Source of the DNA: Echinarachnius parma
Lineage: Eukaryota; Echinodermata; Echinoidea; Clypeasteroida; Echinarachniidae
DNA length: 64,000 nucleotides
Assembly: GCA_037951105.1 (NCBI GenBank)
Contig: JBAMJV010007480.1
Span: forward strand, 1 to 64,000
Direction of reading: 5' to 3'
Shown here: positions 41,246-62,793 of the stretch, one piece after another
Layout of the letters: each line of letters starts with the position of its first letter
Position numbering within the stretch: the first letter of the stretch is position 1
Made by a program: the position numbers and the translations under genes
Notes under the pieces: generated by a model
Seen by the model: only the letters and a program-made list of their open reading frames with translations
Databases searched by the model: none
What the model was told of the DNA's origin: nothing

Positions 41246-42536
41246 CAGGTTTGATAAGGAAAGAGTGATATTTTGAATAGTAAATAGTTTTACTCATGAA
41301 ATAAACTTTTCGGGCCAGTAAATTTTTCTTTCGGGCCACCAGAAAAGGGGAAGAAATTATTACACTTGCCCAACTGGGCCACTGACAAAAAAGGTAAGTG
41401 TGGAGCCCTGCATATATTCATTTAGTTATATCGGACATTCATTCTTATTTCTGGGCAGAACCCTAAGAGAGGGTGGGTTTGGGGGAGGGGGGAGGGGGGG
41501 GGGGGGGTGGGGGTAAGACATGCCACAATGAGAATTAGGGCCAAAGTGCACAATTAATTTACTTATCTGTGATTTTCTCACCTGTAAATATTAATGAAAG
41601 TCTACTTACCGGAAACTACCCCCGCCTTCAGACTATTTACAAATTCAAAATGCTTCCATTCTATAAAATTCACAGCTCTTCTCAGACCAACATTCCTGCA
41701 AGGAGCTTCCAAAAGGCGACAGATTAAGCAAACTGGACTCGACCATGCATGTATCAAAGGTGACTGACTTACTACACATACATGGAGTAAAAGATTCAAA
41801 ACCACAATCTAGGTTTTAAATGTAGATTTCCGATTAATACAAAAAAGAAATGAATGGAGAATGGGCTGTCTTCCGCATCGATACACATCAATGAAACGGT
41901 TCTAGGACTACTACCCCCTGGACAACCACCCCCCGGACGATTACCCCCTGGACAACTACCCCCCTAGGACAATTACCCCCCGGACAACTACCACCCGGAC
42001 AATTACCCCCCTAGGACAATTACCCCCCAAGACAATTACCACCCAAGACAATTACCCCCCAAGACAACTACCCCCCAAGACAATTACCCCCCAAGACAAT
42101 TACCCCCCAAGACAATTACCCCCCAAGACAACTACCCCCCAAGACAACTACCCCCCGGACAATTACCCCCCGGACAACTACCCCCCGGACAACTACCCCC
42201 CGGACTATTACCCCCCGGACAACTACCCCCCGGACAACTACCCCCCGGACTATTACCCCCCGGACTACTACCCCCCGGACAATTACCCCCCGGACTATTA
42301 CCCCCCGGACAACTACCCCCCGGACAACTACCCCCCGGACTACTACCCCCCGGACTACTACCCCCCAGACAATTACCCCCCCCCCCCCCCCCCCCCCCCT
42401 CCCCAAAGACAATTACCCCCCAAGACAAAATATGTGACCGCTCAGGCCGGTGTCCTGGATTTTTCAAGGGGGTGGGTTTGGGCTTTGGGGGTGCGTATTT
42501 GCAAAAACGGGACCAAGACCACTGGTTGAGTCGTGT

Positions 42537-43962: not shown

Positions 43963-44997
43963 ATACCTTTGAAAGTGGAGGTGATTGTCCCTCCCACTTT
44001 TTAATATGCATACATTATGTATGTTTGATTCCAAAGCTTGAACTACGTATATAATATTACTGTCTAGGGTATGCACCAAATCGCTCCACTACCTCGCAGT
44101 TGTGCCCCCCCCCCCCCCCCCCCCATCTGTTGACCCTCGCTACGCCACTGGTCTTAAGGGAAGATGACTTGAGGTAATTGTCTTGGGGGTAATTGTCTTG
44201 GAGTTTAATTGTCCAGGGGTTATTGTCCTTCCTTCAAGCTTTTGCTTTGCCGACTTCCCATATTTCCAGTTTTATTGATCATTCTACAATATATATTTTT
44301 GATTTTACTCCGTCATATCTATGTTACAATGCAATATTAATTTTGTACTCGAATACTTTGTAATTTTGATATTATTGGAAATAAAATGAAATGAAATATT
44401 GTCCAGGGGGTAGTCGACCGGGGGGTAATTATCTTGGGGGTAATTTTCCGGGGGGGGGGGGTAGTGTTTTGGGGGTAGTTGTCTTGGGGGATAGTTGTCC
44501 AGGGGGTAGTTGTCCGGGGGGTAATTGTCCGGGGGGTAGTTGTCTGGGGGGTAGTTGTCCGGGGGGTAATTGTCCGGGGGTAGTAGTCCGGGGGGTAGTA
44601 GTCCGGGGGGTAGTAGTCCGGGGGGTAGTTGTCCGGGGGGTAGTTGTCCGGGGGGTAATAGTCCGGGGGGTAATTGTCCGGGGGGTAGTTGTCCGGGGGG
44701 TAGTTGTCCGGGGGGTAATTGTCCGGGGGGTAGTTGTCTTGGGGGGTAGTTGTCTTGGGGGGTAATTGTCTTGGGGGGTAATTGTCTTGGGGGGTAATTG
44801 TCTTGGGGGGTAATTGTCTTGGGGGGTAATTGTCTTGGGGGGTAGTTGTCTTGGGGGGTAATTGTCTTGGGGGGTAATTGTCCTAGGGGGGTAATTGTCC
44901 GGGTGGTAGTTGTCCGGGGGGTAATTGTCCTAGGGGGGTAGTTGTCCGGGGGGTAATCGTCCGGGGGGTGGTTGTCCAGGGGGTAGTAGTCCGGACA

Positions 44998-46210: not shown

Positions 46211-46377
46211 ATGAAGGCCCCTAAGACTAAGTATATTACCGTTTTGGTAATTTGTATCAGCTTTGGAGGAGTAATTTCCGAAGGAGATGAAAACCCTGCT
46301 GACAGGCTTTATGACACCGCTACATTCGAACAGAATATTGGCACCAAGGATCATTTTGTCAAGTTCTTCGCGCCGTG
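46211..46377 (+). CDS. TXNDC5: TXNDC5 exon 1: signal peptide and start of Trx domain 1
   Basis: Encodes residues 1-55 and two bases of Trp56. The start ATG sits in GACAAAAATGA, with A at -3. It is followed by a basic n-region (MKAPKTK) and a hydrophobic core, then SEGDE, where cleavage is likely after about residue 23. The exon ends FFAPW just before the CXXC motif. The donor is GTAAGT at 46378, and the exon ends after codon position 2. Confidence 0.92.
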
Positions 46378-49300
46378 GTAAGTTGAATTAATTCTTGAAA
46401 TGTTGTGAGCGTGTGCGAAATCGGATACGCTGGTGATTTTGTATACAATATAATAAATAGTTACATGTTCGTTTTCCTACACACATAAAACAGAATGAAA
46501 TCCGGGTCAATGTATGTTTTCTCTGTGAGGCTATTTAGAGACTGAGATTGAAGTGGTGGACTGATCTGGGCTTAACTGCAGAATACCCCACCACTCGACT
46601 ATGGGGGTCGTGGGTTTGCCCACATCTACTAGTAAATAGGTCCAGTGAACTGGACCATTTACACGCAACATATAGGAACTCGTGTATGCATCATGTACCT
46701 GCCCGACATTATCGGTGTCAACTCCACATTCCACATTCATAACACATTGTATACAAACACTGCTGTACACGACATATTAAGTCGTGTTTTCATTTAGCAT
46801 TTGCTGCTTTTCAATGGTTAAATTACTTACAAATGTTAATGTCTTTTCGTCAGTTGTTGACTCCTACCCGAAGCTCGGCCATCTTTGAAGAAGTGAAGCT
46901 ACGACGCGCCCACCGCGCCCGCCTACGGTGATCATAAGCTAACCGTATAGTAAACAAGCTGCACTGGGGAACAATAGCACGCACGGACGTGCTTAGCCTT
47001 CACACAAGCTGTATACTCTTTTTTCTGAAAGAGGGCGCTAAACACGTACACATATTAAAATCTGCGCAACATTTTTAGAAACCACGGAGTAGATCAAAAC
47101 AAATAAAAAACATCTGGAAAGAAGAATAATGAACCTTTTTTGGCGTCATGTATCTAGCAAGCGCTAGTAACGTTCCTGTGCGATTCTTGTCAATAGATGG
47201 CTCACTGTTTTTATGTACATTTTTATTCAGTGTACATGTGGAACACGTTTCGGGGTGTGCTGGAACTTACTCATTTTTTTCCAGAGAAAAAGAGCTCAAA
47301 TGCCAGGAAAGTGAAGAGAAAGGACAACAAAAATAGCATATTTGGTATGTATAGTAGTTTAACTTTATTAATTTCTACAACATTCACCACCAACACCACT
47401 GTCAAAACCAAAATAGCAACACATACTTGTTGCACGGGCTTGAACATGTTGTCAAATAAGGTGCACTTATAACCAATGCTAATTGACCTATGTGTGGGTT
47501 TGCCAACGCCAACGCGCTTTTATCCCTGATCTGTAGAATTTTGGGCATAGATAGATGGTCAAGGAATAAGAAAGTAATGACTGTTTTTCTGTTTCTGTAT
47601 TATACTTATACTAGCACCAGCACTACCACCTATAACTCAAGTGAACGCTAGCGCGGAGCGCTAGCGTTCAAGGTCGGGCTGATAGTGCCCCCGAATTGAT
47701 GATCTAATGTGCACAATAAGTGTGCTTAAAATTATACATATGATACGGTACTTACCACCGATTAGATGATACATATGTGATGCAACTAGCTATGGGGTGG
47801 ATCAGAATGATGATTTTTCGCTCCATTCCGCATCAAAATGAGTGATTTATGCACATCATCGACTTCTATCTGTGTTGTATCGCGACTTCTGAACGATCGA
47901 TTACCGTACGACCACTAAACGCGCGAGTCAGATCTGCCGTCTATTCGGCGGGCGCGGTACTTGAAAAGTTGAATGGAGACCGTTCGCGCGATCATCGATC
48001 GTTCAGAAGTCGCGATACAACACAGATAGAAGTCGAGGAGGTGCATAAATCACTCATTTTGATGCGGAATGGAGCGAAAAATCATCATTCTGATCCACCC
48101 CATAGTTGCATCACATATGTATCATCTAATCGGTGGTAAGTACCGTATCATATGTATAATTTTAAGCACACTTATTGTGCACATTAGATCATAAATTCGG
48201 GGGCAATATCAGCCCGACCTTGAACGCTAGCGCTCCGCGCTAGCGTTCACTTGAGTTATACCACCTATAACGTTTGTGTATAGCATACTGAATCACATTG
48301 CCGTAAGTGCGTTATTTTTTCGCTCGGCGGACAATTGTTTGTGCGAGGGGTGTTGGCGAATTCACTTTGACCCAGTTGACAATGAGTTGTTAATGGTTAC
48401 GACCGGACGCTAGCGGTATAGAACAATGGCACCACGTAGTGTGCGGCGCCATGTGTAACATACAAAGTATTTTACACATAAGTACAGGTATGCTTACTAG
48501 TCTACAAATTTTAATGGATCATATTCATAATTGATTAATACGGACAAAATAACTTTAACCCCTTCCCATTACGTTTTCAGAGAGTCAGAGATGGGAGCCG
48601 AGTTTTCCCGGTTCTGAGGAAAGCCTATTACTTGCTAATTCAAATGACATTTTTGTCCCTTCTAATTCTTGCAAGTGCCAAATAAATGGCTTATGTTATA
48701 TTGAAAGACTGAGTCTGATCTGTGATTTGTCCCCCTAAAAATCAAATTTTTATTGCAGGAATTCAATAGATTCCCCGGTACATTTTGCATTAAAATTAGA
48801 AAAAATATTTCTTGCTCTCATGCTAGATTTTCACTTCACTGGGCCCATATCACTTGCCCTCATGTGCGTGCTAGTATGATCATTGACCAGCAAACAAATG
48901 CTGTATAGGCTATAGCCTCTAGTCTAGGTCTAGGAGATCTAGGTTGAATAGAAGGCTAGAAGCGAAATACAATGCCATGGTCATGCAGATAGTGATAATT
49001 TCTTTTGTGCGTGCCTATGTGGTAGCTTGACTGGTCCATAAAAAATATCTTACTAAATACGTCTTGGGTCTAATTAGAAATAGAATTTCTTTACTCTTTT
49101 TAGGCTAGTTAACTATAAATGACGCATTCTTTCATTTATTTATTTGGACATACCTGTCATATTTTTGTGCATGTATGGAATGTCAGCACTAGCATATTAG
49201 TGGAGAAGTGTGTTAGTTGGCAGTTCTGTTTTTGTTAAATTTGTACAGGTGTGGGCACTGCAAGAAGCTGGCACCAGTCTGGACCAAACTGAGTGAGAAG

Positions 49301-52300
49301 TACAACACAGCTGAAGATAGCCTGGTCACCATAGCAAGGGTTAGTAAGAAAATAAGAGTACATTATTTCATGTATTTTGTATCACTCTGTCGCAATGAAT
49401 CGTGGCAAATGATTCCAGGCACTTGATATGAAACTGCTGCCGCGAGTGCATGTATCAGTACTGACAGGGCTCCACACTTACATTTTTTGTCAGTGGCCCG
49501 GTCAGTCCAGGAAAATAATTTCTTCCCCTTTTCTGGTGGCCCGAAAGAAAAATTTACTGGCCCGAAAAATTTAATTTCATGAATAAACTTTTTACTAGGG
49601 TTAGTTACTATTCAAAATATCACTCTTACCTGATCAAACCAGTGATTATAAATGAAGCATGACATGGAAGAAAACAAGATTTTCTAATTTTGTCAATGTC
49701 GGGTTTTAAATCTGCTTGCCCGATCGGGCCACCAAAATATGACTTTTATACCGTTTTGCTGGCCCGAAGTGCAATTTCAGCGGGCCAGTGCGAGTGTTGA
49801 GCCCTGCAGTACATATAATATCCGCATTGGGCACATCGAGACATCAGGCCCCATATTCATGAAAACCCGCTAGCTTAGTTCATTGCGAAGTGTATTTTAG
49901 ATGTGCAGTTTAACAGTTTTCCTAGCCCCCAACTAGGATTGGCTGGGTAAGCTTTATGAACTCACTATTAGTTAACCCTAGTTAGCAACTAAAATATATT
50001 TTGTTTAATTCGTAGCCACATCATCCAAAATGAACAGAATGAAGCAAGGAATTAATCTAGTGGGCTTTCATGAATATAGGCCCATGTGCTATAGCACGGG
50101 CCAATAATTGGCTTTGGGGATAAATTTGTGAAATCTTTAACCAGGTGCTGAAGAAATAGATATTATATTTGTGGAGCAGTAATTGGGTGCAATTATCCAT
50201 TGAATGCAGATCTCCGCAAGGATGTAAGTTGTTTTGTGGTGCCTTTTAATCACCAGGAGGGTGTTTCACAAAGTTAATCTTAGCACTAAGATGGTCTAAA
50301 ATATTATGGAAAGCCACTAGTGTCTTGAAACAGTTTTGTAAAAGTTATGTTTAAATGCATAAAATGTTGATCAAATCATATATCAAAGAGATTCATGATC
50401 TTCACATAAAATTCATGAAATTTCTTTGATAATTAGAAAATATATATGATTTGAATCAACATTTTATGCATTTCAACATAACTTTTACAAAACTGTTTCA
50501 AGACACTAATGGCTTTCCATAACATTTAAGACCATCTTAGTGCTAAGATCAACTTAGGAATTTAGGATCTTTGTAAAACACCCCCCAGGCCCCCGTTGCA
50601 AAAAGAGATACAATCAATGGTAAGTTACAATTGATTTGTGCATCTTGAATACATGATCTGACTTACAATTAATGGCAACTTAAAGGGGTAGTTTAGTTTT
50701 GGTAAGGCTGAACTTAAGTAGCTAAAACCTGCACAGTAACATTATAAACTAATAGTTATAACTCCACCATGCTCGAAAGGTATACAAAATTACAAACGAC
50801 TACCGTATTTGTCGGTGTATTAACCGCATGGTTTTCCCGACGGAATTACCGGCGAAAACGGGGATGCGGTTTGTACACGGAGATAGGGAAAATTGCACGA
50901 AAATCCCCACTAGCACAACACAGCATGAAACACTATGCGTGGAACTGTAGTGAACGCTAGAAGACAAAACAAAACATCAATCACGATAGGATGATCGCTA
51001 ATTTCAGTCAAATCACGTCTGCACGCTTTTTTTCCCCACCACTTGCAAACGTACGATCGCAATTTTTCATCTCCAAAAAGAGCTTAGAATTTACTATTTT
51101 CAAGGGTAGATTTAACCAAATCTGAACTTGTAAGAAGGAATAAACATATCAAGGTACAGTTTTTTCATCTATTATTTGATTCCTGTTTTGTTTTGTCTTT
51201 GTCTTCTAGCGTTCACTACAGTCCCATGCATAGTGTTCCGTGTTTTGTTTTCTGGTAAGCTCAACAGACAACAAATGTTACGGATTGATCGGGGAAGGGG
51301 CTCATAATTTCCTTAATGTGCTTCAGAGACTTCAGTAAATTGAAGTATATTTCATAGACCAAAACTCTCTGGAAAAGAAGAATGTTTTTTCTTACTCTCG
51401 GCACATTTTGACCATCCAAAAATCAAGAATTATACTATCAAATAATTTTTTTTTCATGGAAAACCCCCCAAAGTTAGGGATGCGGTTAATACACCGGAGC
51501 GGGTAATACACCGACAAATACGGTAAGTAAAAAGCCTGTTATCATTCAAAAAGAGCCATTCAAACACAAGAGGGCGCTTTTTTAAAAGGCATTGGTTTCA
51601 ACCATTTTTCATACAAAATTATGCATGTGATGTTTTATTGATATATAATGATTAAATAGCGAGATCATCAACAACTATTAAAAAACGCTTTTGAAAATTT
51701 TTGAAAAAGTGCAAGCATTTTTAAATTTTTTTCTAAAAATCATCTAATTATTTGGGCCCCAAATAATTATAAGATCAGATATATTTATTGATATTTCAGC
51801 CGTTTCTGGGTCGATTTTGACCAAATAAAGTTTATTCTGCCATTAAAATTGCATGTTCTCTCAAATTCGACATTCAGTTTTTCATTACCTCACAAAACAA
51901 TTGTGATGTGCAGCGCCCTCTCTACCAAAACTAAACTACCCCTTTAAAATCGATTGTATCTCTTTCTGCAACAGGGCCCTGATGTCCCAACTTCATGTTG
52001 AAAAAATTGGGCATCAGGACTATCTGGAATGAAAATTATATACTGGTAATATCGGATGCTTCTGTATGCCGATATCGCCGCAGTTATGAAAACTGTTTTA
52101 TGGGCATGTCCCTAAACATGCAAAGTTACTTATTCAACATAGCATGGTTGACTAAGAACCACAAAACATGCATAATCAGCCAATGTTTATGGAAATTTCT
52201 GAATAATGTTGTCTGTTGTTAAATGCCAAAGTTCTTTATTCAGGTTGACTGTACAGAAGAGACCAAGCTGTGCTCAGACCATGGTGTCTCGGGCTACCCA

Positions 52301-55300
52301 ACCTTCAAGGCTCAAGCTCTACAGGCAAGACCAGGAACCGGTCAACTAAAGACCGCAAAACCCACAAAATAGGCCTATCTCTATGAAAATGTATTTCTGA
52401 ATAAAGCATTCCATCGTTTAATCTTTTTTTTATAAACTAGGTTGACTGTACTGAAGAGACAAAGCTGTACTCAGACCATGGTGTGACTGGCTACCCAACC
52501 CTCAAGCTCTACAGGCAAGACCAGGAACTAGTCAACTAAAAACCACTATGAAAATGTATTTCTGAAAGCATTCTGTCGTTTTATCTTTTTTTTATATAAA
52601 CTAGGTTGACTGTACTGAAGAGACAAAGCTGTGCTCGGACCATGGTGTGACTGGCTACCCAACCCTCAAGCTCAACAGGCAAGACCAGGAACCGTCAACT
52701 ATAAACCACAAAATAGGCCTATCTCTATGAAAATGTATTTTTGAATAAAGCATTCTGTTGTTTTATCTTTCTGTATTCAGGTTGACTGTACTGAAGAGAC
52801 CAAGCTGTACTCAGATCATGGTGTGACTGGCTACCCAACCCTCAGGCTCTACAGGCAAGACCAGGAACCGGTCAACTAAAAAACGCAAAACCCACAAAAT
52901 AGGCCTATCTCTATGAAAAATGTATTTCTGAATAAAGCATTCTGTTGTTTTATCTTTTTTTATAAACTAGGTTGACTGTACTGAAGAGACGAAGCTGTGC
53001 TCGGACCATGGTGTGACCGGCTACCCAACCCTCAAGCTCTACAGGCAAGACCAGGAACCGGTCAAGTACAAGGGAAAGAGAGACTTGGAGGCCCTTGATA
53101 AGTTCGTCCAGGATGAACTGAACCCACAGGTACGGCTAATACTTGCTCTTTCCATCTTGTTATAGAGTACAGAAGCCACGACGTCATAAAAATCCTTTTT
53201 TTGAATTTTCAAATTTGAACTTCATTTTCCGAAAGAGCATACAAAATAATGTCCAAGTACCAAAAATCGATTGAATATGTTTAGTATTGGCTGAGATATG
53301 CCCATCCGAATTAATTTTGTGTCAATAGGCAATCAGTGTTATAGTGGTCTGGTTTATAACTTTATGAACCAGAGCACTATAACACTGATTGCCCATTGAA
53401 GTAAAATTCTTTCGGATGGTTATATCTCAGCCAATACTTCACATATTCAATTGATTTTCGGTATTTGGACATTATTTGTTATGCTCTTTCGGAAAATGAA
53501 GTTCAAATTTGAAAATTCGAAAAATAGATTTTTGATGACATCACACTTCACCACTCTATAGAGGCAAATATTTGACCAGAACCGGTAACTATTTTCTCCC
53601 AGTAAAAACACTTAAACGGACTTAGTAACATTGTCCGAATCCTCAAAATTCAATTGGAATTCTAGCAGTTCCCTCATTGTATTTGTATTAGCAATAAAAG
53701 CATGGGACAGGTTTCGGTTTTTCAAATTTCCCTTTTGTTAAAAAGATATTTACGATTGAAGTGTTAAAAGGTTAAACTATCCACTGGACCATCAAAATCG
53801 TGTACAAAGTGAGGGCAATGAGTTAGTAAATATCACTTTGCATTTTTGCTCATTGCTCGGCCATATAACTTGAAATTTTCACACAACACCCAGTGAACAT
53901 ATCAGATAACAACAATATACATGTACATTGTATCAATCATTCATCACTTTTTGCACATGTCAACAAAGTTACTAGATCCCTTTTATACCACAATCAAAGA
54001 GCAGTGTTGATAAATCAATGTACCTGTGGTGTGATGTGGTGACACAGGATTGGTAGGGCACATGCTTTTCAATAATGGGATCCCGAGACCATTGTCTGCG
54101 AAATTCGTACCCGTCGTAATAATTATAAAGCATGCAAAATGCCTCCTTGAGGCTCCTTGCGGCACAAAGTGTTGTCAGAACCCGACGGTTGATTAAGAAA
54201 CTCCATGTGCACGTCATCTAAAGGTTTTATAAAAACATGCGTCGATTTTGTATAAGCATTGCGGCGTAACAATTTGGTCACGATTTTCGCAAGACACGTA
54301 CCATAACTGTCTAAGCGCATGCGCACTTGCGACTGGGTACGGATTTAGCACTACACCGGAAGGAGGTGAAATCCTCTATGTCAATAATATTCTCAATGCG
54401 CATGAGCTGCTCGGAAGGAATACTTCCCAGGGAGTGGAGATCGTGCCTACAGTGCAAGCTGACATTGTGTCCTATGCCTGGGGTAATCATAGAGTAAAGC
54501 GCTAAGAGATTTTATTATCATCTGACTTAGTAAAATATGTGTCATTGATTGGCTAAACACAGTCACATGATTGCCATGTCAGTTTTAACTGTTACATGGC
54601 AGATGCACTGTTCACCGCATGACGCACGCTGCAAAAGAGATTGTATTATGACCTCACAATGAGAACCAAAGCTATGTTGTTTTTGATGCATGAATGTGTA
54701 TATTTTAGCCCCTGGATTTAGTCAGATGATAAAACAGTTAACTTTGTAGTCGGGGAAAATCATGGAATGTTCCACTCCTCAGGATTTTAAATGCTATTTT
54801 GTGTAGAAATCTTCCCTCAATAGCATTTAAAATCCCTCGGAGTGGAACATTCCGTGCTATTCCGTCCACCACCAATTTGATATTGAATCATGTAAGGCGA
54901 TATATTAATCAAATTATTCCTTTTTATCCTGCAGGAGGCAGAGGTTCCCCAACCTCCCGAAGCCAAGCAAGGTCTCTACGAGCTGACCGAAACCAACTTC
55001 AAGGACCACGTTGCCAAGGGCAGCCACTTTGTCAAGTTCTATGCACCGTGGTGCGGCCACTGCAAGCGTCTCGCACCTGTATGGGAGCAACTTGCCCTAG
55101 GATTCCAACATAGCGACATTGTGACCATTGCAAAGGTATATGCCGGTGAAATTAGGGATTAGGGATGTTTAGCACCATCAGTTCCTGTAAAATTGTATTC
55201 TTTAATTTTTAGGTTTAATGCAAGTTAAATGCAAGTGAGCCTCTAAAATTAACTGTGGTAGCTGTGCACATGGAATTTTATTGCGTTTTATACCAAAAGT

Positions 55301-58300
55301 GAGTTCAATCTTACGATGATAGTATGGTCGGTCATCCAGCATAGAAGCAGCTTGTAAACCTTAGGTTATGCTTTGCCTTGAGGATTGATGTTGTGCTCTT
55401 CACCTAAGTATCATTTTTAATTACCTCTAGAGTAACTTGTTGCCATTACTGTATACCAGTTCTTTGCATTATAATCTAGTATGATATATTGTATGTTTCC
55501 TATAATTTGTTTATCATTTGTAATGTTTTTTTTACTCTGTGAATTCACTTGCAATTTAGCTTTATTGTCTATAATAGTTGAAATAAATGAATAACAATCA
55601 TAATAATGGACAAGACAAACATTGTAATTGCTGCTCTCTACCGAGGTGTATAAATGGGGACCCGGTAGGAGGTGAAAGCCTATGTGTGAAGGATCTTCTC
55701 AATGCCCATGAGCCGCTTGGAAGGAATGCTCCCCAGGGAGTGGAGATTGTGCACACAATGTGTGCTGGTTTGCATTGTATCCTGTGACCGGGATATTATC
55801 ACTGTAAAGCGCTTAGAGATGATTATCGATCATATTAGGCGCTATATAAACCAAGTATATTATTATTATTATTATTATTATTTTAATTGACTTGGTTTAT
55901 TGTTTTGTTGCCCAGGTTGACTGCACTGCGCACAGGGCTGTCTGTGAACGCTTTGAGGTCAAAGGTTATCCAACACTCAAGTTCATCAAGGATGGAGAAG
56001 CGGTATGTATGACACTGTGATGCAAAGTATTTGTGACCGGCTATAGCAAAACCCGGCACTTGTCGGTAAAAATCAAAATGTAGATGTTCATACCATTACA
56101 AAGGCCTCATTACAAGCTTTCATTTGATCCTTTGTTCGAACTAATTCGTCAATAATTGGCGAAGATATGATTATTTCAATTTTACAATCATAGGTCTTAT
56201 ACACACATTGTGTGAACTTAAAATGCCCATTTCTTTGAAAGATGAATTACCGACAATTGCCGGGTTTTGCTATAGCAGGTCACATTTGTATGTAAAGTAT
56301 TTGCCTCGCCAACAAAGTGACCAGAGGTGCTGGCCCGGATTCACAAAGGAGGTTTATACAAACCATGGTTTAAATGGTCTACATCTATGGAGTGCTGCTC
56401 ATAGACAAGTAAAACAATTTATAATTTCTTATAATATGGCTGTTAGTGCTTGCTAACCAGCAAATTTCACAAAGGAGGTTTTTACAAACCATGGTTTAAA
56501 CCATGGTTTACATCTATGGAGTGCTGCTCGTAGACAAGTAAAACAATTTATAATTTCTAATGATATGACTATTAGTGCTTGCTAACCAGCAATGTTCACC
56601 ATTTGAGAAGACAAAAATGTATATGGTGCATTTAGTAAAGGTGTACCATCAGCATTGTTAACAAGTAAGGAGGTTACATTCTTTCTCCATCAGTTTATTA
56701 ATGGCACTCCATAGATGTAGACCATGGATGAACCATGGTTTGTACAAACCTCCTTCGTGAATCCTAGATATGTTTTCAGGCAGTCCGTCCGTAGGGACAT
56801 AGGTACCTCTGTCCATCCTGTTTATCTTTCTTGCGGTATCTTGAGAACAAGTAAATGGATCAATATCAAACTTGGTATGAATGTACATATCAGTGGACAA
56901 TGATCAGGTTAGATTTGGGGGTCATGCACTCAAAGGTTGACTGAATACTGCTTGAGCGATTACCATCATACTCAAATTAATACAATAGATTCAGTCTATG
57001 TCAACTTGGGCTTGATGGTGACAGTCACAGACCCATCTAGTTTCCCCGGTTGATTCTTAGAGGAAAGACTGTGACCCATTGAGTATGTTACCAAGATGAC
57101 TAGACACAATGACAAGGGGGGAGCAAAGGTCCACCCCCCCCCCCCCCCCCCCCACCACCCCTAACAATTAAGATAAGAAAGAGGTGGTTAATTCTAGTTG
57201 TTAATCTTTATTTCTAGGTTGATTCTTACAGGGGAGGTCACGACCACCTATCACTCAATGAGTATGTCAATAAGATGACCAAGAGAACGATGAGGGGGGG
57301 GGGGGGGGGGGGCTGGGAAGCTGCACCCCTCTCCCCACCAAAAGATAGATTAGATAGAAGAACTTAAAAAGTCTATGGGGATTTCAGAAACTCAAAGGGA
57401 ACAGGTTAATGGTGGTCAATGATGATATTTTGGGGTTTTTCCAGGTTGATGCCTACAGGGGAGGCCGTGACCACCTAGCGCTCAAGGAGTATGTGACCAA
57501 GATGACCGCGAGCAGCGGCGAGGCTGCACCCCCTGCCCCTCAGAAGGAGGAGAAGGTAGATGCTGCTGCCCCTGCTGGAGAGGAACCAGTTGCCTCTGAT
57601 TCAAAGGTATACATATGTATCACCTATTGGAATTATTTGTTATTATAGTCTTAAATTCAACCCTAAAAACTGTGCTTTAGAATTAAATTCATGGGTTGAA
57701 TTTCACACTCCATATTGGTTATTCCTAATGAAGGGTTTAAATGCACAAAAAAAAACACTAAAACCAATTTGGCTACTGTGAGATGATTGTGATGAATCCT
57801 GCTGGAAAAGAAAGACATTATTATAAAGGTAATGTGTCATATTATTACATGCATTGGTAGGCCATGAGTAATGTATCATTTTTAAATGGTTGGTGGGTGG
57901 GCAAGGGGGGCGAGGCTGCACCCCCTGCCCCTCAGGAGGAGGAGAAGGTAGATGCTGCTGCCCCGGCTGGAGGGGAACCAGTTGCCTCTGATTCAAAGTT
58001 ATGCATATATACACCACCTTTTGGCCCTCCTTCTCATTAGGGGCTTAAAATCACCCCTAAAAGATGTGTTTTAGAATTGGTAATTCTAAAAGAAGGATTA
58101 AAATTTTTAAAAAACAATAGGAAACAATTTGAGTGAGAAACAAATTAAAACAAAAACAAAATATCTGCTAGTTTACCTTGCTGTGCAATGAGTAAGGTAT
58201 CATTTAAAAGAGGGGGCAAGGAACTCGCTAAAGAGGAGAAGGTAGATGTGGCTAACCCTGCTGTTGAAGAACCAGTTACCTCTGATTTTAAGGTTTGCAC

Positions 58301-61300
58301 ATAACCAGGGCTCAACACTGCTGCCTTCTTGGCCAGGGGCCGGTAAAATTGCACCTTGGGCCAGCAAATAAAAAGGGATGGAAGTCGTGTTATTTAATCT
58401 TTTCTTTCAGGTTTATTTTTACAGGGGAGGTGGTGACCACATATCACTCAAAGAGTATGCCACAAGGTTGACTTAAAAATAGCCGTTAGAGGGGATTTTG
58501 AATTCAAACTTAGAGGGGATTTTGATGTAAAATGTGACGTTGGGCCAGCAAAAAAGGTGGATGGAAGTCATGTTTTGAAGGCCCCATTGGGCAACTAGAC
58601 TAAGAAAATTGAAAGTAACTGTCAGAAAAAATCTTGCATTCTTCTATGTCATCAAAGGCAATAAGAGTTTGAAAATAAGTCAGTTTGCATATTTAAGCAC
58701 GAGAAAATGTTTGTTTGGGCCACCAAAAAAGGAAAGGAAATTATTTTATTGGACAGTCAGAGCTACAAGCAAAGAAAGTTAGTTTGCCCATCCCAGCACA
58801 TTTACTTTAACAAGATACTGTGCCCCACGTCTTGGCCAGTCCTTTCACAATTATCAAAATACTATACTGTAGCTTTATGTGTTAGTATATTCACAGAAGT
58901 GATTGTTAATATATAATTACAACTGGATATTGCAAAACCATGCATATGTCGGTAAGAAGGCGGAAGAAGGCGTCAAAAGAAAGCTTGTGATGAGGCCTTT
59001 CTCATGGCTAGAAAATCAAAATTGTGATCATTACCGACACGTGCAGGGTCCGGCTATATCCAGTCACAATTACTAAACTTTTTGAATATTCATTTTCCCC
59101 TTGTTTTATTTGTTCTAGGTTGTAGTTCTGACCGGGGATAACTTCCAAGCAGAGGTCTCATCCGGGACTACATTCATCAAATTCTATGCTCCATGGTAAG
59201 ATTATTTTGTGCAGTATTGAGTTACGCATAAAGACTAAAAGTGTTTGGGGGGTTTTTTTTAACAAATAATATTTTTACCTAGCGATAATTTGCAGGGTCC
59301 TATATTCACTCTCAACAGTCAGAAAATTATATTGCTACTGTGTTATAGTACAATCAGGGCTCAACACCATACCTGCCAATGGTTCAGATTTAATCTGAAT
59401 ATTCAGATTTTCTGAATATTTAGGACAGTAACAATCTGAATACAGTCAACTTCGCGTAAGTCGATCTTGACGGGACCATGTGAAACACATCGACTTAGGC
59501 GATATTCGACTTGCGCGTAAGTCGAAGAAAATCCTACTATACTACGCGATGCACGCGCGTGGTACGTGTACGTCTTCGTGACATTCGTTATGCGAGCATG
59601 CATTGAAGGACGCTACCGGTACCGTACGGTGTACGTATGGGGAGAAAAGGGAGAGCAAGAGAGAGAGGTGCGAGATAAGAACAGAGGATCTAGGAGCGTC
59701 AGATCAGTGCGTTGGCAGTGCAGTGCGCAATCGGTAACACATTGGGGTTTAGTTCGAGCAAGGAGTAAAAATAACTTCTTGCTTCGAATTACGCGATGCA
59801 AATTTCATGTTTTGCTTTGAAAGTGTGTCGGGAATTTGATCGACTTAGGCGATAATTCGACTTACAAAAATCGACTTATGCAGAAGAATAACACACGCAA
59901 GTGTATGACGATAAATCAGGACTATTTATAATCATCGACTTACACGATTATTCGATATATGCGACTTCGACTTACGCGGAGTTGACTGTATATCAGATTT
60001 TTCAAATTTTCATTTTTCATTTTTAAATAAATTTTTTCTTTTTTAGTATTAGTTTACAATTTTCTACCCATATTCTATATCCATGTTACGCCCAGTGTGC
60101 TATTTTTCAGCCAAAGTTGGCTTGTTGTATCATGTACTGCGATTTGAGAGTTCACGTGTCGCCAAAACCCCTGCAGTGGCGCTGCCCCTTGACCCCGATG
60201 GGGGCTCCGCCCCCAGACCCACGCAAAGGGTTCAGATTTCTTATTTTCAAATGTTGGCAGGTATGCAACACTACACTTGCCCGGGGCAAAATTGATGTGG
60301 GGCAGGTAAAGTTACATAAATGGTCTAGTTTGGTTGCCCGATTAGGCAAGTAACATTTTTGTTCAATTACAAAAGAAAAAATGTAATTCGTTAACCCGTT
60401 GCTTATGGGAACTGGGTAGGCTATGTACAAAGTCTATGGGGACTTCAGAATCTCGAAGTATGACTTTACTTGCCCAATAGGGCCAGTAGAGACTAGAGAG
60501 AAAAGTTTAAATGTGGAGGCTCGCTACAATGTTCACTGTTCAGAAAAAATCCAACTCATTCTGAGAAGATCATCTCACTTTTGGTCAGTATGATCCAATC
60601 CAATTATCGTCAAATTAAGATAAAAGATTATGTCTTTGCTTTTTCAAGTATAAATAATACTGTGGAAGCGGTGTGGCAAGATTGGTAGAGCGCTTGCTTT
60701 CAGATCGTGAGATCCCAAGTTCGAACCCAGACCACTCCGTTTGTACTTTAGCAAGGCATTTAAAGGGACTTAGTAACATTGTCCAAATCCTCAAAATAAA
60801 TTTTTCATTCTAGCGGTTCCCACATACCTTGTTGTATTCGTATTAACAATAAAATCATGGGACAGGTTTTGTTTTTTCAAATTTCCCTTTCGTTACAAAG
60901 ATATGTACGATCGAAGTATTCAGATAAGAAAACTCTTCTGTGTACAAAGTGAGTGCAATGAGTTATTGAATATCACTTTGCATTTTCGCTCATTACTTGG
61001 CCATGCAATGTCCATTTGACTTGAAATTTTCACACAATACCCTGTGTACATATGAGATAACAATAATATACATTGCATTAACCATTCATCACTTTTTGCA
61101 CATGTCAACAAAGTTACTAGATCCCTTTAATCCACATTGCTGCTCTCTACCCAGGTGTATAAATGGGTACCTGGTCTGGTGAAAATTAGCTTGGTGCACT
61201 AATATGGTTGCCCGCGGCTAGTATGCTCCCTGGGGAGTTGAGAATGTGTACAAGATAATTGTGCGGGTCTGAACTGTACCAAATAACCAGGGATAATAAT

Positions 61301-62793
61301 AAGTGCTTAGAGGCTGTTCTGCATTAGGTGCTATACAAATACGATCTATTATTATTAATACTTGCTTTTGTGAATGTCTATTCCTCAGGTGCCCTCACTG
61401 TAAGAGCCTCGCCCCTGTATGGGACGAGCTTGCCCAGAAGTTTGATCACATGGCCGATGCCAAGGTCGCCAAGGTGGATTGCACCGTAGCAAAGGAGCTG
61501 TGCCAGAAACATGAGGTATGTACAGAATCCCATCTACTTGATGTTTATTGATCAGTTGCCATCTTTTTCAGAGACCTGCCTCTTTCTAGTGTCAGCTTGT
61601 TCATCAGTTTGATCACATGGCAAATGTAAAGGCTACAAAGGAACTTTGCCAGAAAGTTTTGTCACATGGCTAGTGTGGAAGTTCATAGGTAGCCAAGGTG
61701 GATTGCACGGTTGGAAAGGAACCGTGCCAGAAATACGAGGTAAGTAGAGTATCCCATAGACCAGGGCCCCGTTGCAGAAAGAGATACAATCGATTGTAAG
61801 TTACGATTGATCATAAGTCAGAAAATGTACGCGTTTCAACCAATCAGATTTGCGCATCTAGAACATGTGATCTGACTTACGCTTAATTGCAACTTACAAT
61901 CGATTGTATCTCTTTCTGCAACGGGGCCCAGATGTTTCTTTCACAGTTGCCCTTGTTGTCAGAGACTGGATCCTGTCTGTCTAGGATGAGCTGGCTAATA
62001 ATGTTGTCAAGTTGGTACCAGAAACAAGAGAAGATTCGACCCAGTCATATCACCCTACTCAAAACTACGAAAAGTGTTTTATTTTTATATACGACATGCA
62101 ATCTTGACACACCCTAACCCAAGTACTTTTGGGGGGCCAGTCGTGAAAGTGCTAACGTTTCTTGCTTAGTTTTTTTTCAAATATTGACGTTAAACTCTTG
62201 GAATTTTCTTGATCACATTTTAAGAAAAAATCATATTAAGATGTGTGATTGGACTAAGGGTTAACTATGTTTCAAGTAAATAGAAAACAAATCAGGTTTT
62301 ATACATGTTTGCATTTGTTTCACTCTACGTGCAGAGCCGTGTTTAACCAACACTACTCCTATTCCAGACTGGCCAGACAACCTCCAAATACCCAAAACAG
62401 AGCTTTCATTCATGAAACTCTTTATTACACGTTAATTCAATTTTGTGTAGTTCTATGGTTTAATACTGGGTCCTCTTTAGGTATTACAAACTGCAAAACT
62501 TGATTTCTTTTTACTTCATAATAATGTTTTTTTTTATTAAACAATCCAAAACTGTTTGATAGCAGGCATAACATCTACATGTGTAAACCCAGCCCATGAT
62601 AATTGTTATGGTTTGTTTTTGTATCTCTTAGAATATGTTTCCTTTCAATTTGTCTTTGTGTATGCAGATCCGTGGCTACCCAACACTGCTTCTATTCCAG
62701 AACGGCCAGATGGCTGAGAAACATGCTGGCCCCAGAACTCTCATCGACCTGGAGAAATTCCTGACCTCAAAACTACCAAAGACGGAGCTTTAA
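46211..62793 (+). CDS. TXNDC5: TXNDC5/ERp46-like protein disulfide isomerase, whole gene (9 exons)
   Basis: Thiol-disulfide oxidoreductase of the ER lumen that introduces and rearranges disulfides in folding secretory proteins (family knowledge). Joined exons: 46211-46377, 49249-49339, 52971-53129, 54935-55135, 55916-56002, 57445-57606, 59119-59195, 61389-61515, 62668-62793. They give 1197 nt, 398 residues plus stop, close to the vertebrate length of about 430. A hydrophobic signal peptide covers about residues 1-23. Three thioredoxin domains have active sites WCGHC (56-60), WCGHC (178-182) and WCPHC (315-319), each followed by a VDCT strand and a GYPT cis-proline loop (103-106, 223-226, 360-363). 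An acidic Ala/Pro-rich linker covers about 256-289. The protein ends in KTEL, a KDEL-like ER-retrieval signal. Three domains in this order plus the linker distinguish it from PDIA3/PDIA4/PDIA6. All introns are GT-AG. Many dead exon copies lie in the introns. Confidence 0.93.
47632..48259. mobile_element. 628-bp hairpin (foldback) element in intron 1
   Basis: Arms 47632-47901 and 47994-48259 are near-perfect reverse complements around a loop of about 92 bp. The termini read ATAACTCAAGTGAACGCTAG and its complement, each with an internal GCTAGCGC palindrome. The flanks are a 7-bp direct repeat ACCACCT (47625-47631, 48260-48266), a probable target-site duplication. Open frames inside are by-products. 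It carries no transposase. Confidence 0.85.
49249..49339 (+). CDS. TXNDC5: TXNDC5 exon 2: catalytic CGHC of domain 1
   Basis: Begins after TTGTACAG and completes the split Trp codon to give [12 protein letters not shown]. It continues to VTIAR at the donor GTTAGT. It ends in phase 0, so it can join any exon 3 copy that starts GTTGAC. Confidence 0.92.
49466..49806 (-). repeat. GGGCAAG/GGGCCAG dispersed repeat, intron 2
   Basis: Begins AGGGCTCCACACTTACATTT and ends GTTGAGCCCTG, with GCCCGATCGGGCC inside. It is similar to 41210-41412, 26345-26655 and 58305-58800. The class is not recognised. Confidence 0.6.
49848..50083. mobile_element. Short inverted-repeat element, intron 2
   Basis: Ends are complementary: GGCCCCATATTCATGAAAAC at 49848 and CTTTCATGAATATAGGCCC at the right end. 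There is no coding capacity; it looks like a MITE. Confidence 0.65.
50256..50586. mobile_element. Long inverted-repeat element, intron 2
   Basis: The two halves are complementary over most of their length (GGGTGTTTCACAAAG at left, CTTTGTAAAACACCCCCC at right, with TTATGGAAAGCCA internal). A related copy lies at 15545-15817. Confidence 0.75.
50684..51943. mobile_element. TTAA-flanked element B inside MITE A
   Basis: Terminal repeats AGGGGTAGTTTAGTTTTGGT and its complement are flanked by TTAA (50680-50683, 51944-51947). This is the target duplication typical of piggyBac-class transposons. No transposase frame is seen. Confidence 0.8.
50803..51523. mobile_element. TA-flanked element C inside element B
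   Basis: Termini CCGTATTTGTCGGTGTATTA and its complement are flanked by TA, as for Tc1/mariner/pogo elements. A second inverted pair (about 50932-50985 and 51176-51240, sharing CTAGCGTTCACTACAGT on one arm) lies inside. It is non-coding. Confidence 0.75.
52244..52345 (+). pseudogene. TXNDC5 exon 3 dead copy 1
   Basis: Starts after TTATTCAG with GTTGACTGTACAGAAGAG. A 7-bp insertion after CCAACC shifts the frame, and homology to exon 3 stops at GGTCAA. The tail then matches that of the other truncated copies, including AATAAA at 52400-52405. The acceptor is kept and no donor is evident. Confidence 0.85.
52441..52539 (+). pseudogene. TXNDC5 exon 3 dead copy 2
   Basis: In frame from GTTGAC to a TAA at 52537-52539 (ends ELVN then stop). 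One Cys of exon 3 (LCSDHG) is Tyr here (LYSDHG). The second half of the exon is missing, and the AATAAA of copies 1, 3 and 4 is lost by a small deletion. The acceptor is kept. Confidence 0.85.
52605..52698 (+). pseudogene. TXNDC5 exon 3 dead copy 3
   Basis: Keeps [15 protein letters not shown] but reads Asn for Tyr (LKLN). It has lost one G near the breakpoint (ACCGTCAAC), shifting the frame. AATAAA is at 52744-52749. Acceptor ATAAACTAG. Confidence 0.85.
52781..52879 (+). pseudogene. TXNDC5 exon 3 dead copy 4
   Basis: Open from GTTGAC to an in-frame TAA at 52877-52879 (QDQEPVN then stop), with LYSDHG instead of LCSDHG. AATAAA is at 52931-52936. Splicing exon 2 to this copy would give a 118-residue protein lacking the end of the thioredoxin fold and the ER-retrieval signal. 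Confidence 0.85.
52971..53129 (+). CDS. TXNDC5: TXNDC5 exon 3 (intact copy): second half of Trx domain 1
   Basis: 53 codons, [20 protein letters not shown] onward to the helix ending DELNPQ. Of five tandem copies this is the only one that stays open past the sequence GACCAGGAACCGGTCAA and reaches a donor (GTACGG at 53130). It therefore must supply the functional mRNA. The acceptor is ATAAACTAG. Confidence 0.92.
53161..53560. mobile_element. 400-bp foldback in intron 3
   Basis: Arms of about 190 bp are near reverse complements (ends TATAGAGTA and ACTCTATA; centre GGCAATCAGTGTTATAGTGG and complement) with a loop of only about 12 bp. It starts 31 bp after the exon 3 donor. Confidence 0.8.
53616..53981. 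mobile_element. TTAA-type MITE, intron 3
   Basis: Starts after TTAA with ACGGACTTAGTAACATTGTC and ends AAGTTACTAGATCCCT. It is the same family as 60764-61126. The right TTAA is mutated to TTTA. Confidence 0.7.
54000..54510 (+). repeat. Decayed tRNA-derived SINE, intron 3
   Basis: A degenerate tRNA-like head (GGATTGGTAGGGCACATGCT) lies at about 54047. A body segment (GGAGGTGAAATCCTC... CAGGGAGTGGAGATCGTGCC... TAAAGCGCTAAGAGA) resembles 55626-55885. Its 3' end (GGCGATATATTAATCAAATT) appears at about 54895, so about 375 bp at 54511-54885 were inserted. Confidence 0.55.
54935..55135 (+). CDS. TXNDC5: TXNDC5 exon 4: linker and first half of Trx domain 2
   Basis: 67 codons. A Pro/Glu-rich linker ([12 protein letters not shown]) leads into [10 protein letters not shown] and the active site [14 protein letters not shown], ending IVTIAK. 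Unlike domains 1 and 3, no intron splits the active-site Trp. Acceptor CCTGCAG, donor GTATAT. Confidence 0.93.
55626..55885 (+). repeat. SINE body with ATT-repeat tail, upstream of exon 5
   Basis: Contains GCTGCTCTCTACCGAGGTGT, GGCGCTATATAAACC and a (TAT)n tail ending about 30 bp before the exon 5 acceptor. It is the same family as 60661-61357 and 23225-23356. Confidence 0.7.
55916..56002 (+). CDS. TXNDC5: TXNDC5 exon 5: VDCT/GYPT part of Trx domain 2
   Basis: 29 codons, [20 protein letters not shown] then LKFIKDGEA. Acceptor TTGCCCAG, donor GTATGT, phase 0 at both ends. The ATT-repeat tail of a SINE ends about 30 bp upstream of the acceptor. Confidence 0.93.
56032..56284. mobile_element. 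MITE family D, intron 5
   Basis: Terminal repeats TGTGACCGGCTATAGCAAAA and TTTTGCTATAGCAGGTCACA. Related copies are at 5421-5698 and 58919-59067. Confidence 0.75.
56336..56765. mobile_element. Inverted-repeat element with internal duplication, intron 5
   Basis: GGATTCACAAAGGAGGTTTA at left and AAACCTCCTTCGTGAATCC at right. A 130-bp internal segment (CAAACCATGGTTTAAA... GCTTGCTAACCAGC) is present twice. The distal flank (56766-56935) resembles one unit of the 34.7-35.4 kb array in reverse. Confidence 0.65.
57049..57120 (+). pseudogene. TXNDC5 exon 6 head, decayed copy A
   Basis: GTTGATTCTTAGAGGAAAG and the following bases align with the start of exon 6 but carry an early TAG and deletions. 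The copy runs into a G tract and then a long C tract (about 57136-57153). Confidence 0.7.
57218..57293 (+). pseudogene. TXNDC5 exon 6 head, decayed copy B
   Basis: After TTTCTAG it reads [20 protein letters not shown], close to exon 6. It then meets a run of about 19 G in place of the linker start, with no donor. The acceptor is intact but the copy is a dead end. Confidence 0.8.
57445..57606 (+). CDS. TXNDC5: TXNDC5 exon 6: end of domain 2 and acidic linker
   Basis: 54 codons. [20 protein letters not shown] closes the thioredoxin fold. A low-complexity linker rich in Ala, Pro, Glu and Lys follows ([10 protein letters not shown]... EEPVASDSK). Acceptor TTTTTCCAG, donor GTATAC. Degenerate copies of the first half lie upstream and downstream, and copies of the second half lie downstream. 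Confidence 0.92.
57911..57998 (+). pseudogene. TXNDC5 exon 6 tail, copy 2
   Basis: Nearly identical to the linker-coding second half of exon 6 (EAAPPAPQ... to ASDSK), but the donor has changed (AAAGTTATG). The flanking intron is also repeated, so the duplicated unit is about 330-380 bp of exon tail plus intron. Confidence 0.8.
58233..58292 (+). pseudogene. TXNDC5 exon 6 tail, copy 3
   Basis: More diverged third copy (GAGGAGAAGGTAGATGTGGC onward to GATTTTAAG followed by GTTTGC). It is preceded by the same TATCATTTAAAAGAGGGGGC intron stretch that precedes copy 2. Confidence 0.7.
58305..58800. repeat. GGGCCAG dispersed repeat, intron 6
   Basis: AGGGCTCAACACTGCTGCC, repeated TTGGGCCAGCAAA and CCCCATTGGGCAACTAG match the dispersed GGGCAAG family. 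Dead exon 6 copy C lies within it. Confidence 0.5.
58411..58474 (+). pseudogene. TXNDC5 exon 6 head, decayed copy C
   Basis: After a good acceptor (TTTCTTTCAG) it reads [20 protein letters not shown], then T and a stop. It sits inside a GGGCCAG-type dispersed repeat and shows similarity only to the first 21 codons of exon 6. Confidence 0.8.
58919..59067. mobile_element. MITE family D, short copy, intron 6
   Basis: ACTGGATATTGCAAAACC at left and GGCTATATCCAGTCACA at right, 51 bp before exon 7. It is shorter than the 250-280-bp copies. Confidence 0.65.
59119..59195 (+). CDS. TXNDC5: TXNDC5 exon 7: start of Trx domain 3
   Basis: [20 protein letters not shown] then KFYAP and two bases of Trp315. 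Acceptor TTGTTCTAG, donor GTAAGA. It ends in the same codon position as exon 1, exactly before the CXXC motif, matching the domain 1 gene structure. Confidence 0.92.
59368..60265. mobile_element. CATACCTGCCAA-ended element, intron 7
   Basis: Perfect 12-bp ends CATACCTGCCAA/TTGGCAGGTATG are flanked by a 6-bp direct repeat CAACAC (59362-59367, 60266-60271). It has inserted into a GGGCAAG repeat whose halves continue on each side. It contains the pogo-like element at 59443-59988. Confidence 0.8.
59443..59988. mobile_element. pogo/Tc1-like non-autonomous element
   Basis: Ends CAGTCAACTTCGCGTAAGTC and CTTACGCGGAGTTGACTG, flanked by TA. CGACTTA-type motifs recur near both ends. The inner frames are not transposase. 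Confidence 0.8.
60661..61357 (+). repeat. tRNA-derived SINE split by a TTAA element
   Basis: Pol III-like A box TGGCAAGATTGG (60674-60685) and B box GTTCGAACCC (60719-60728) are followed by the body (CCACATTGCTGCTCTCTACC) and an ATT tail. The 363-bp insert at 60764-61126 separates head and body. Confidence 0.8.
60764..61126. mobile_element. TTAA-type MITE inside the SINE
   Basis: Ends AGGGACTTAGTAACATTG and AAGTTACTAGATCCCT, with TTAA on both sides (60760-60763, 61127-61130). Confidence 0.85.
61389..61515 (+). CDS. TXNDC5: TXNDC5 exon 8: CPHC active site of domain 3
   Basis: Completes Trp315, then [34 protein letters not shown] and donor GTATGT. The active site is CPHC rather than CGHC. Proline here is known from bacterial DsbA and one PDIA5 domain, and tends to make the disulfide more oxidising (family knowledge). 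Acceptor TTCCTCAG. Confidence 0.92.
61556..61740 (+). pseudogene. TXNDC5 exon 8, decayed copy 1
   Basis: TTGCCATCTTTTTCAGAGAC through TTTGATCACATGG aligns with exon 8. After an internal rearrangement, [16 protein letters not shown] followed by a perfect GTAAGT donor (61741) matches its end. The middle is broken, so it is not a usable exon. Confidence 0.75.
61764..61929. mobile_element. MITE family A, uninterrupted copy
   Basis: 166 bp with about 40-bp ends (GGGCCCCGTTGCAGAAAGAG and its complement). It separates two dead exon 8 copies. Another copy lies at 40013-40160. Confidence 0.85.
61947..62011 (+). pseudogene. TXNDC5 exon 8, decayed copy 2
   Basis: After TTTCACAG, TTGCCCTTGTTGTCAGAGAC and GATGAGCTGGC resemble the start of exon 8, with frame-breaking changes. 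It directly follows an inserted inverted-repeat element (61764-61929). Confidence 0.6.
62335..62412 (+). pseudogene. TXNDC5 exon 9, decayed copy
   Basis: After TACGTGCAG, AGCCGTGTTTAACCAACACT and ATTCCAGACTGGCCAGA match the start of exon 9. The middle is deleted and the end (CCAAAACAGAGCTTT) matches the KTEL-coding end. Confidence 0.75.
62668..62793 (+). CDS. TXNDC5: TXNDC5 exon 9: end of domain 3, KTEL and stop
   Basis: [20 protein letters not shown], then a C-terminal helix ending SKLPKTEL and TAA at 62791. The GYPT cis-proline loop of domain 3 opens the exon. KTEL replaces the usual KDEL; such variants can still bind the KDEL receptor in other proteins (general knowledge). Acceptor GTATGCAG. 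Confidence 0.93.
   Translation: MRGYPTLLLFQNGQMAEKHAGPRTLIDLEKFLTSKLPKTEL

Follow-up and report, generated by a model that had tools for sequence, protein, structure and literature searches.

Does a run of truncated exon copies inside a gene serve that gene, or is it dead debris? The question is raised by a 64,000-nucleotide stretch of the genome of the echinoid Echinarachnius parma (contig JBAMJV010007480.1 of assembly GCA_037951105.1, positions 1 to 64,000 of the forward strand; hereafter the window), in which exon 3 of a predicted TXNDC5 gene is preceded by four truncated copies of its own start. Nine predicted coding exons, whose borders were set from the reading frame and GT-AG only, join into one open frame (Table 1) whose CxxC sites read CGHC, CGHC and CPHC; its last residues, KTEL, would form a C terminus resembling a signal for retrieval to the endoplasmic reticulum. 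Three Thioredoxin stretches were found in the predicted protein (Pfam, E 4.3e-92), and its residues 24–392 match the TXNDC5 chain 8eky_M of PDB with an E of 1e-123, this being the sole sequence at E up to 1e-60. By this best match over most of its length and by its three thioredoxin domains, the predicted gene is TXNDC5 (ERp46).

The original prediction had placed starts of exon 3 at 52244, 52441, 52605, 52781 and 52971, and a repeat search confirmed all five as 117-nt copies with spacings of 197, 164, 176 and 190. Ungapped identity to the second copy is 65% for the first, which carries a 7-bp insertion, and 89%, 88% and 93% for the others. A blastn search with the exon part (E up to 1) recovered the same five places together with one 12-nt match (E 0.68). 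Only the copy at 52971 is complete, reaching 53129 and the exon 3 donor, and the 3′ part of the exon gives a single blastn match in the window. In copies 1 to 4 the sequence changes at one common breakpoint, GGTCA(A), as had been described, with one G also lost there in copy 3. The tail beyond this breakpoint, said to be common and non-exonic, is indeed common to the four copies, but it proved to be a duplicate of the 3′ end of intron 2, which is present in an older form at 52151–52243, directly upstream of copy 1. Alignment to this upstream intron end gave the tails after copies 1, 3 and 4 scores of 36, 31 and 42, each reached by 0 of 300 shuffles; the tail of copy 2, which has a deletion, scored 18, a value reached by 74 of 300 shuffles and hence not significant.

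Each unit of the array is made up of the last ~94 bp of intron 2 and the first ~100 bp of exon 3 and measures 163–194 bp (about 190), and all five units align across the intron part and the exon part alike (unit boundaries were read by eye from the alignments). On its sequence, the array is a local tandem duplication across the intron 2/exon 3 border, in five head-to-tail units, and this much the alignments demonstrate. All units share the single junction GGTCA/ACTAA. At the two breakpoints (exon GGTCAAGTAC, intron GGTTGACTAA) 6 of 10 bases are alike, a match equalled by 1.6% of 20,000 random exon/intron placements; note that the register was picked by eye after the match had been seen, so that this 1.6% is post hoc. 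Convergent truncation of the copies at one point was ruled out, the tail being the end of intron 2. A mobile element was also rejected, the best match of the tail outside the array, within the window, having an E of 0.18. Descent from the one junction accounts for the truncation, tail, in-frame TAA, AATAAA and acceptor that the copies share, and these count as one event and not as four independent ones.

This bears directly on the possibility that the copies are small alternative last exons or poison acceptors, such that splicing of exon 2 into a copy would end the protein in domain 1 or trigger decay, lowering TXNDC5 output. In outline the array has what such exons have, namely an acceptor, a stop and an AATAAA. 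The acceptor is kept throughout, in agreement with the original prediction, with AG/GTTGAC in all five copies and a pyrimidine-rich stretch before it; when scored with consensus weights that were not fitted (used for donors as well), the acceptors of copies 1 to 5 reached 6.6, 8.9, 8.9, 13.7 and 8.9, the last being that of the intact exon, and the E8 acceptor reached 6.6. Copies 2 and 4, read from exon 2, are open to an in-frame TAA, as had been noted, and when joined to exons 1 and 2 give 118 amino acids in all. It had also been claimed that three copies keep AATAAA, and the motif does follow copies 1, 3 and 4, within their tails; of the two open copies, however, copy 4 alone has its own, 54 nt past its stop, the tail of copy 2 having lost the motif and the next one lying 207 nt past its stop. 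Copies 1 (+7) and 3 (−1) are frameshifted, with stops at 52370 and 52728 and products of 128 and 127 amino acids. Acceptor, open frame and own AATAAA come together in one copy of the four, copy 4.

Other points also speak against such a role. The features stem from a single duplicated segment, inherited as one block, and AATAAA is common in the gene, where 15 occurrences of it and 9 of ATTAAA were counted on the + strand over 16,290 bases, the array among them. (The oldest form of the intron end reads AATAAT in place of AATAAA.) Copies 2 and 4 both change LCS to LYS, replacing with tyrosine a cysteine that, by alignment, each of the three domains keeps in the solved TXNDC5 chain. Retention of the AG in 4/4 copies needs no selection, since its chance is 0.43–0.66 at 5–10% divergence. 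The copies do carry few amino-acid changes, and the internal GTs of copies 2 to 4, which score 1.9 and so exceed the weakest predicted donor of the gene (that of E6, 0.8), would permit short stop-shifting exons; the same GT, however, stands in the intact exon at 53011, where its use would break the gene. We consider it very unlikely that the copies act as alternative last exons or poison acceptors. We think it just as doubtful that the units are copy-number-variable competing acceptors, each diverting some transcripts to truncated, decaying messages, so that array length would tune TXNDC5 output and differ among individuals.

How the transcript might be spliced past the copies is suggested by the layout. 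Copies 1 to 4 end before the exon 3 donor and contain no copy of it; that donor scores 3.9, and the next-best GT in the array 1.9. Intron 2 runs for about 3.6 kb up to the intact exon 3, and intron 3 for about 1.8 kb. Because long flanking introns point to exon definition, these lengths suggest that the acceptor at 52971 is favoured, in that the single exon 3 donor would pair with the nearest upstream acceptor, which is that of the intact copy. According to PMC9225289, preference among splice sites in long introns goes to the ones nearest across the exon, and we infer that this rule may extend to the present animal. (Recursive splicing through the AG/GT at the exon start was set aside by eye, GTTGAC being a poor donor.)

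Dead debris and a poison or terminal exon set had been left side by side in the original prediction. Debris fits better, because the features are one duplicated segment, the copies end before the donor, two are frameshifted and two lose the conserved cysteine. No result obtained lends support to a regulatory role. We infer that the four truncated copies are very probably non-functional, decaying debris. In the history that we propose, a first duplication would have joined the two short, imperfectly matching sites described above, unequal exchange would then have enlarged and reshuffled the units, and the truncated copies, being without function, would be decaying and would be spliced out within intron 2.

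Several observations weigh against the debris reading. The acceptor of copy 4 (13.7) outscores that of the intact exon (8.9). In pairwise comparisons of units 2 to 5, the intron part differs by 4/65 to 15/84 with 2–5 gap events, and the exon part by 5/94 to 8/92 with 0–1 gap events. In terms of variable columns, the exon part of these units tends to be less changed than the intron part, without significance (11/92 exon vs 12/62 intron, p 0.25; for the truncated units 2 to 4, 10/92 vs 12/62, p 0.16). This lack of significance counts in favour of debris. When copy 1 is added, the difference is clear, the counts being 14/92 in the exon part vs 27/58 in the intron part, p<0.001. Compared with the intact exon, copies 1 to 4 show non-synonymous changes at 1/72, 2/72, 1/70 and 2/72 and synonymous changes at 5/21, 4/21, 2/20 and 4/21, that is, ratios of non-synonymous to synonymous change (pN/pS) of 0.06, 0.15, 0.14 and 0.15. 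For a copy 1 dead from the time its intron part split off, the probability of at most one non-synonymous change (N<=1), from a simulation that assumes an omega of 0.05 for the intact exon, would be 0.0000–0.0008 at K of at least 0.29, 0.006–0.009 at K=0.20 and 0.06–0.08 at K=0.12; given six changes, it would be about 0.035. Exchange with the intact exon would account for this pattern in copy 1, as a candidate explanation only.

Low ratios in the four copies would be expected in part, as most changes on the intact exon's own line should be synonymous, and any exchange between units of the array would lower the ratios further. Partial copies of other exons of the gene (located by blastn with rough exon coordinates) offer a comparison: pN/pS is 0.25, 0.67, 0.39 and 0.34 for those of E6, 0.16 (3/40.3 to 5/10.7) and 0.35 (5/29.7 to 3/6.3) for those of E8, and 0.27 (3/28.7 to 4/10.3) for that of E9. 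Ratios below 1 are general among the partial exon copies, the smallest values being those of the exon 3 array.

Copy 1 calls for separate comment. It differs from unit 5 at 30/91 sites in its intron part and at 6/94 in its exon part, and all six exon changes (a count that leaves out the 7-base insertion) fall within the first 48 nt, five being synonymous and one non-synonymous. Its exon part would either have undergone later exchange with the intact exon or have been coding for part of its history. In the second case copy 1 would be what is left of an earlier coding duplicate of exon 3, for example one member of a mutually exclusive pair or a piece of a second copy of the gene, which exchange with the array later shortened. 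The diverged intron part beside mostly synonymous exon changes speaks for such a relic, as does a pN/pS of 0.06, where the seven partial copies that belong to E6, E8 and E9 give 0.16–0.67. The numbers are small, however, as the value of about 0.035 for a dead copy with six changes illustrates; conversion by the intact exon accounts for the pattern equally well; the copy is now frameshifted and ends short of the exon 3 donor; and low ratios in copies 2 to 4 (0.14–0.15) mean that copy 1 is not unique. We therefore regard a coding past of copy 1 as unlikely. Note that this idea bears on the history of the copy and is compatible with its being debris today.

The array does not stand alone. Tiles of 280 nt with a same-strand copy within 1.2 kb (E<1e-5) number 126 of 455 over the 64 kb and fall into 27 clusters, which were counted by hand and include some short-period arrays. 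By location, a local copy is present for 9/26 exon tiles (among them those of the exon 3 array), 20/94 other tiles in the gene and 97/335 tiles outside it; the idea that exons are preferred targets of duplication is unsupported by the 9/26 exon tiles vs 97/335 outside the gene. Six other arrays with periods of 110–224 bp are present in the window, and within the gene E6, E8 and E9 have decayed partial copies, the intact E6 sitting among its four (57218–58472). Local duplications are many in the window, and the exon 3 array is one of them. That the array itself, or its copy number, is an error of assembly is most improbable: units 2 to 5 differ pairwise by about 5–18% plus indels, which makes simple stutter unlikely, and similar arrays occur elsewhere in the window.

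Other features of the window were recorded alongside these. Two arrays of 15-bp units lie in opposite orientation, at 41905–42381 (GGACAACTACCCCCC, 31 copies) and 44399–44994 (TTGTCCGGGGGGTAG, 38.5 copies). Intron 3 contains a near-palindromic fold-back element (53188–53533) with two 172-nt arms that are 88% complementary and 2 nt apart; it begins 58 nt past the exon 3 donor and is flanked, by eye, on its left side by TATAGAGT and on its right side by ACTCTATA. A hairpin-like sequence with GGGCCC and agatacaatcgatt ends lies in the last intron (61776–61930), and a similar end was seen by eye in intron 2 near the array, at about 51950–51982. None of 4227 known RNA families reached its gathering score in the window, the exon 3 protein had no match in a plasmid collection, and no title among the literature listings describes the present TXNDC5 array.

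Table 1. Predicted exons of TXNDC5, units of the exon 3 array and partial exon copies, in window coordinates
Feature	Position	Strand	Remarks
TXNDC5 gene, nine predicted coding exons	46211–62793	+	joined open frame, 398 amino acids
Exon E1	46211–46377	+	predicted
Exon E2	49249–49339	+	predicted
Exon E3	52971–53129	+	predicted
Exon E4	54935–55135	+	predicted
Exon E5	55916–56002	+	predicted
Exon E6 (linker exon)	57445–57606	+	predicted
Exon E7	59119–59195	+	predicted
Exon E8	61389–61515	+	predicted
Exon E9	62668–62793	+	predicted
Array unit 1	52151–52344	+	oldest intron 2 end (52151–52243) and copy 1 (52244–52344); 7-bp insertion, frameshifted
Array unit 2	52345–52534	+	intron 2 end, AATAAA at 52400 (tail of copy 1); copy 2 from 52441
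Array unit 3	52535–52697	+	intron 2 end shortened, its AATAAA lost; holds the in-frame TAA (52537) of copy 2; copy 3 starts at 52605, 1-base deletion
Array unit 4	52698–52874	+	intron 2 end, AATAAA at 52744; acceptor of copy 4 (from 52781) scores highest in the array
Array unit 5	52875–53064	+	intron 2 end with AATAAA (52931) and the in-frame TAA (52877) of copy 4; intact exon 3 begins (52971, on to 53129)
Exon 3 donor CAG/GTACGG	53130–53135	+	top score among 46 GTs in 52244–53135
Partial E6 copy	57218–57280	+	
Partial E6 copy	57909–57998	+	donor GT to TT
Partial E6 copy	58230–58287	+	
Partial E6 copy	58420–58472	+	
Partial decayed E8 copies	61594–61632, 61687–61739	+	
Partial decayed copy of E9 start	62337–62377	+	

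The arrangement has counterparts in known systems. As in other tandem repeats across an intron–exon border, the units run head to tail, share one junction and diverge; here, the repeat includes a stretch of coding exon, and the intact exon stands at its right end. In a study on intron gain, local tandem duplication likewise multiplies splice-site sequence, but there it acts on a proto-splice site inside a coding exon and gives rise to a new intron, whereas here an existing acceptor has been multiplied within an old intron. The same study cites Emerson et al. for small tandem duplications being frequent in Drosophila, with a median of 367 nt. Mutually exclusive duplicated exons, as treated in PMC5740500, are likewise neighbouring similar sequences within one gene and were sought there by similar length and same frame; the copies of the array are truncated before the exon 3 donor and two of the four are frameshifted, and mutually exclusive exons were rejected on these grounds.

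As debris, the array would be of little consequence. It carries a warning, in that stops, tails and poly(A) motifs shared across an array can all derive from one duplication. It also provides a natural layout for a question about splicing: four acceptors (6.6, 8.9, 8.9 and 13.7) precede the true one (8.9), and the exon 3 donor follows close behind the true one only. Reed and Maniatis are said to have used, in 1986, test genes with duplicated splice sites, in which competing acceptors had full or truncated exon sequence behind them, and the array would be a natural arrangement of like competing acceptors. Its layout bears on whether the splicing machinery chooses by exon or by first acceptor.

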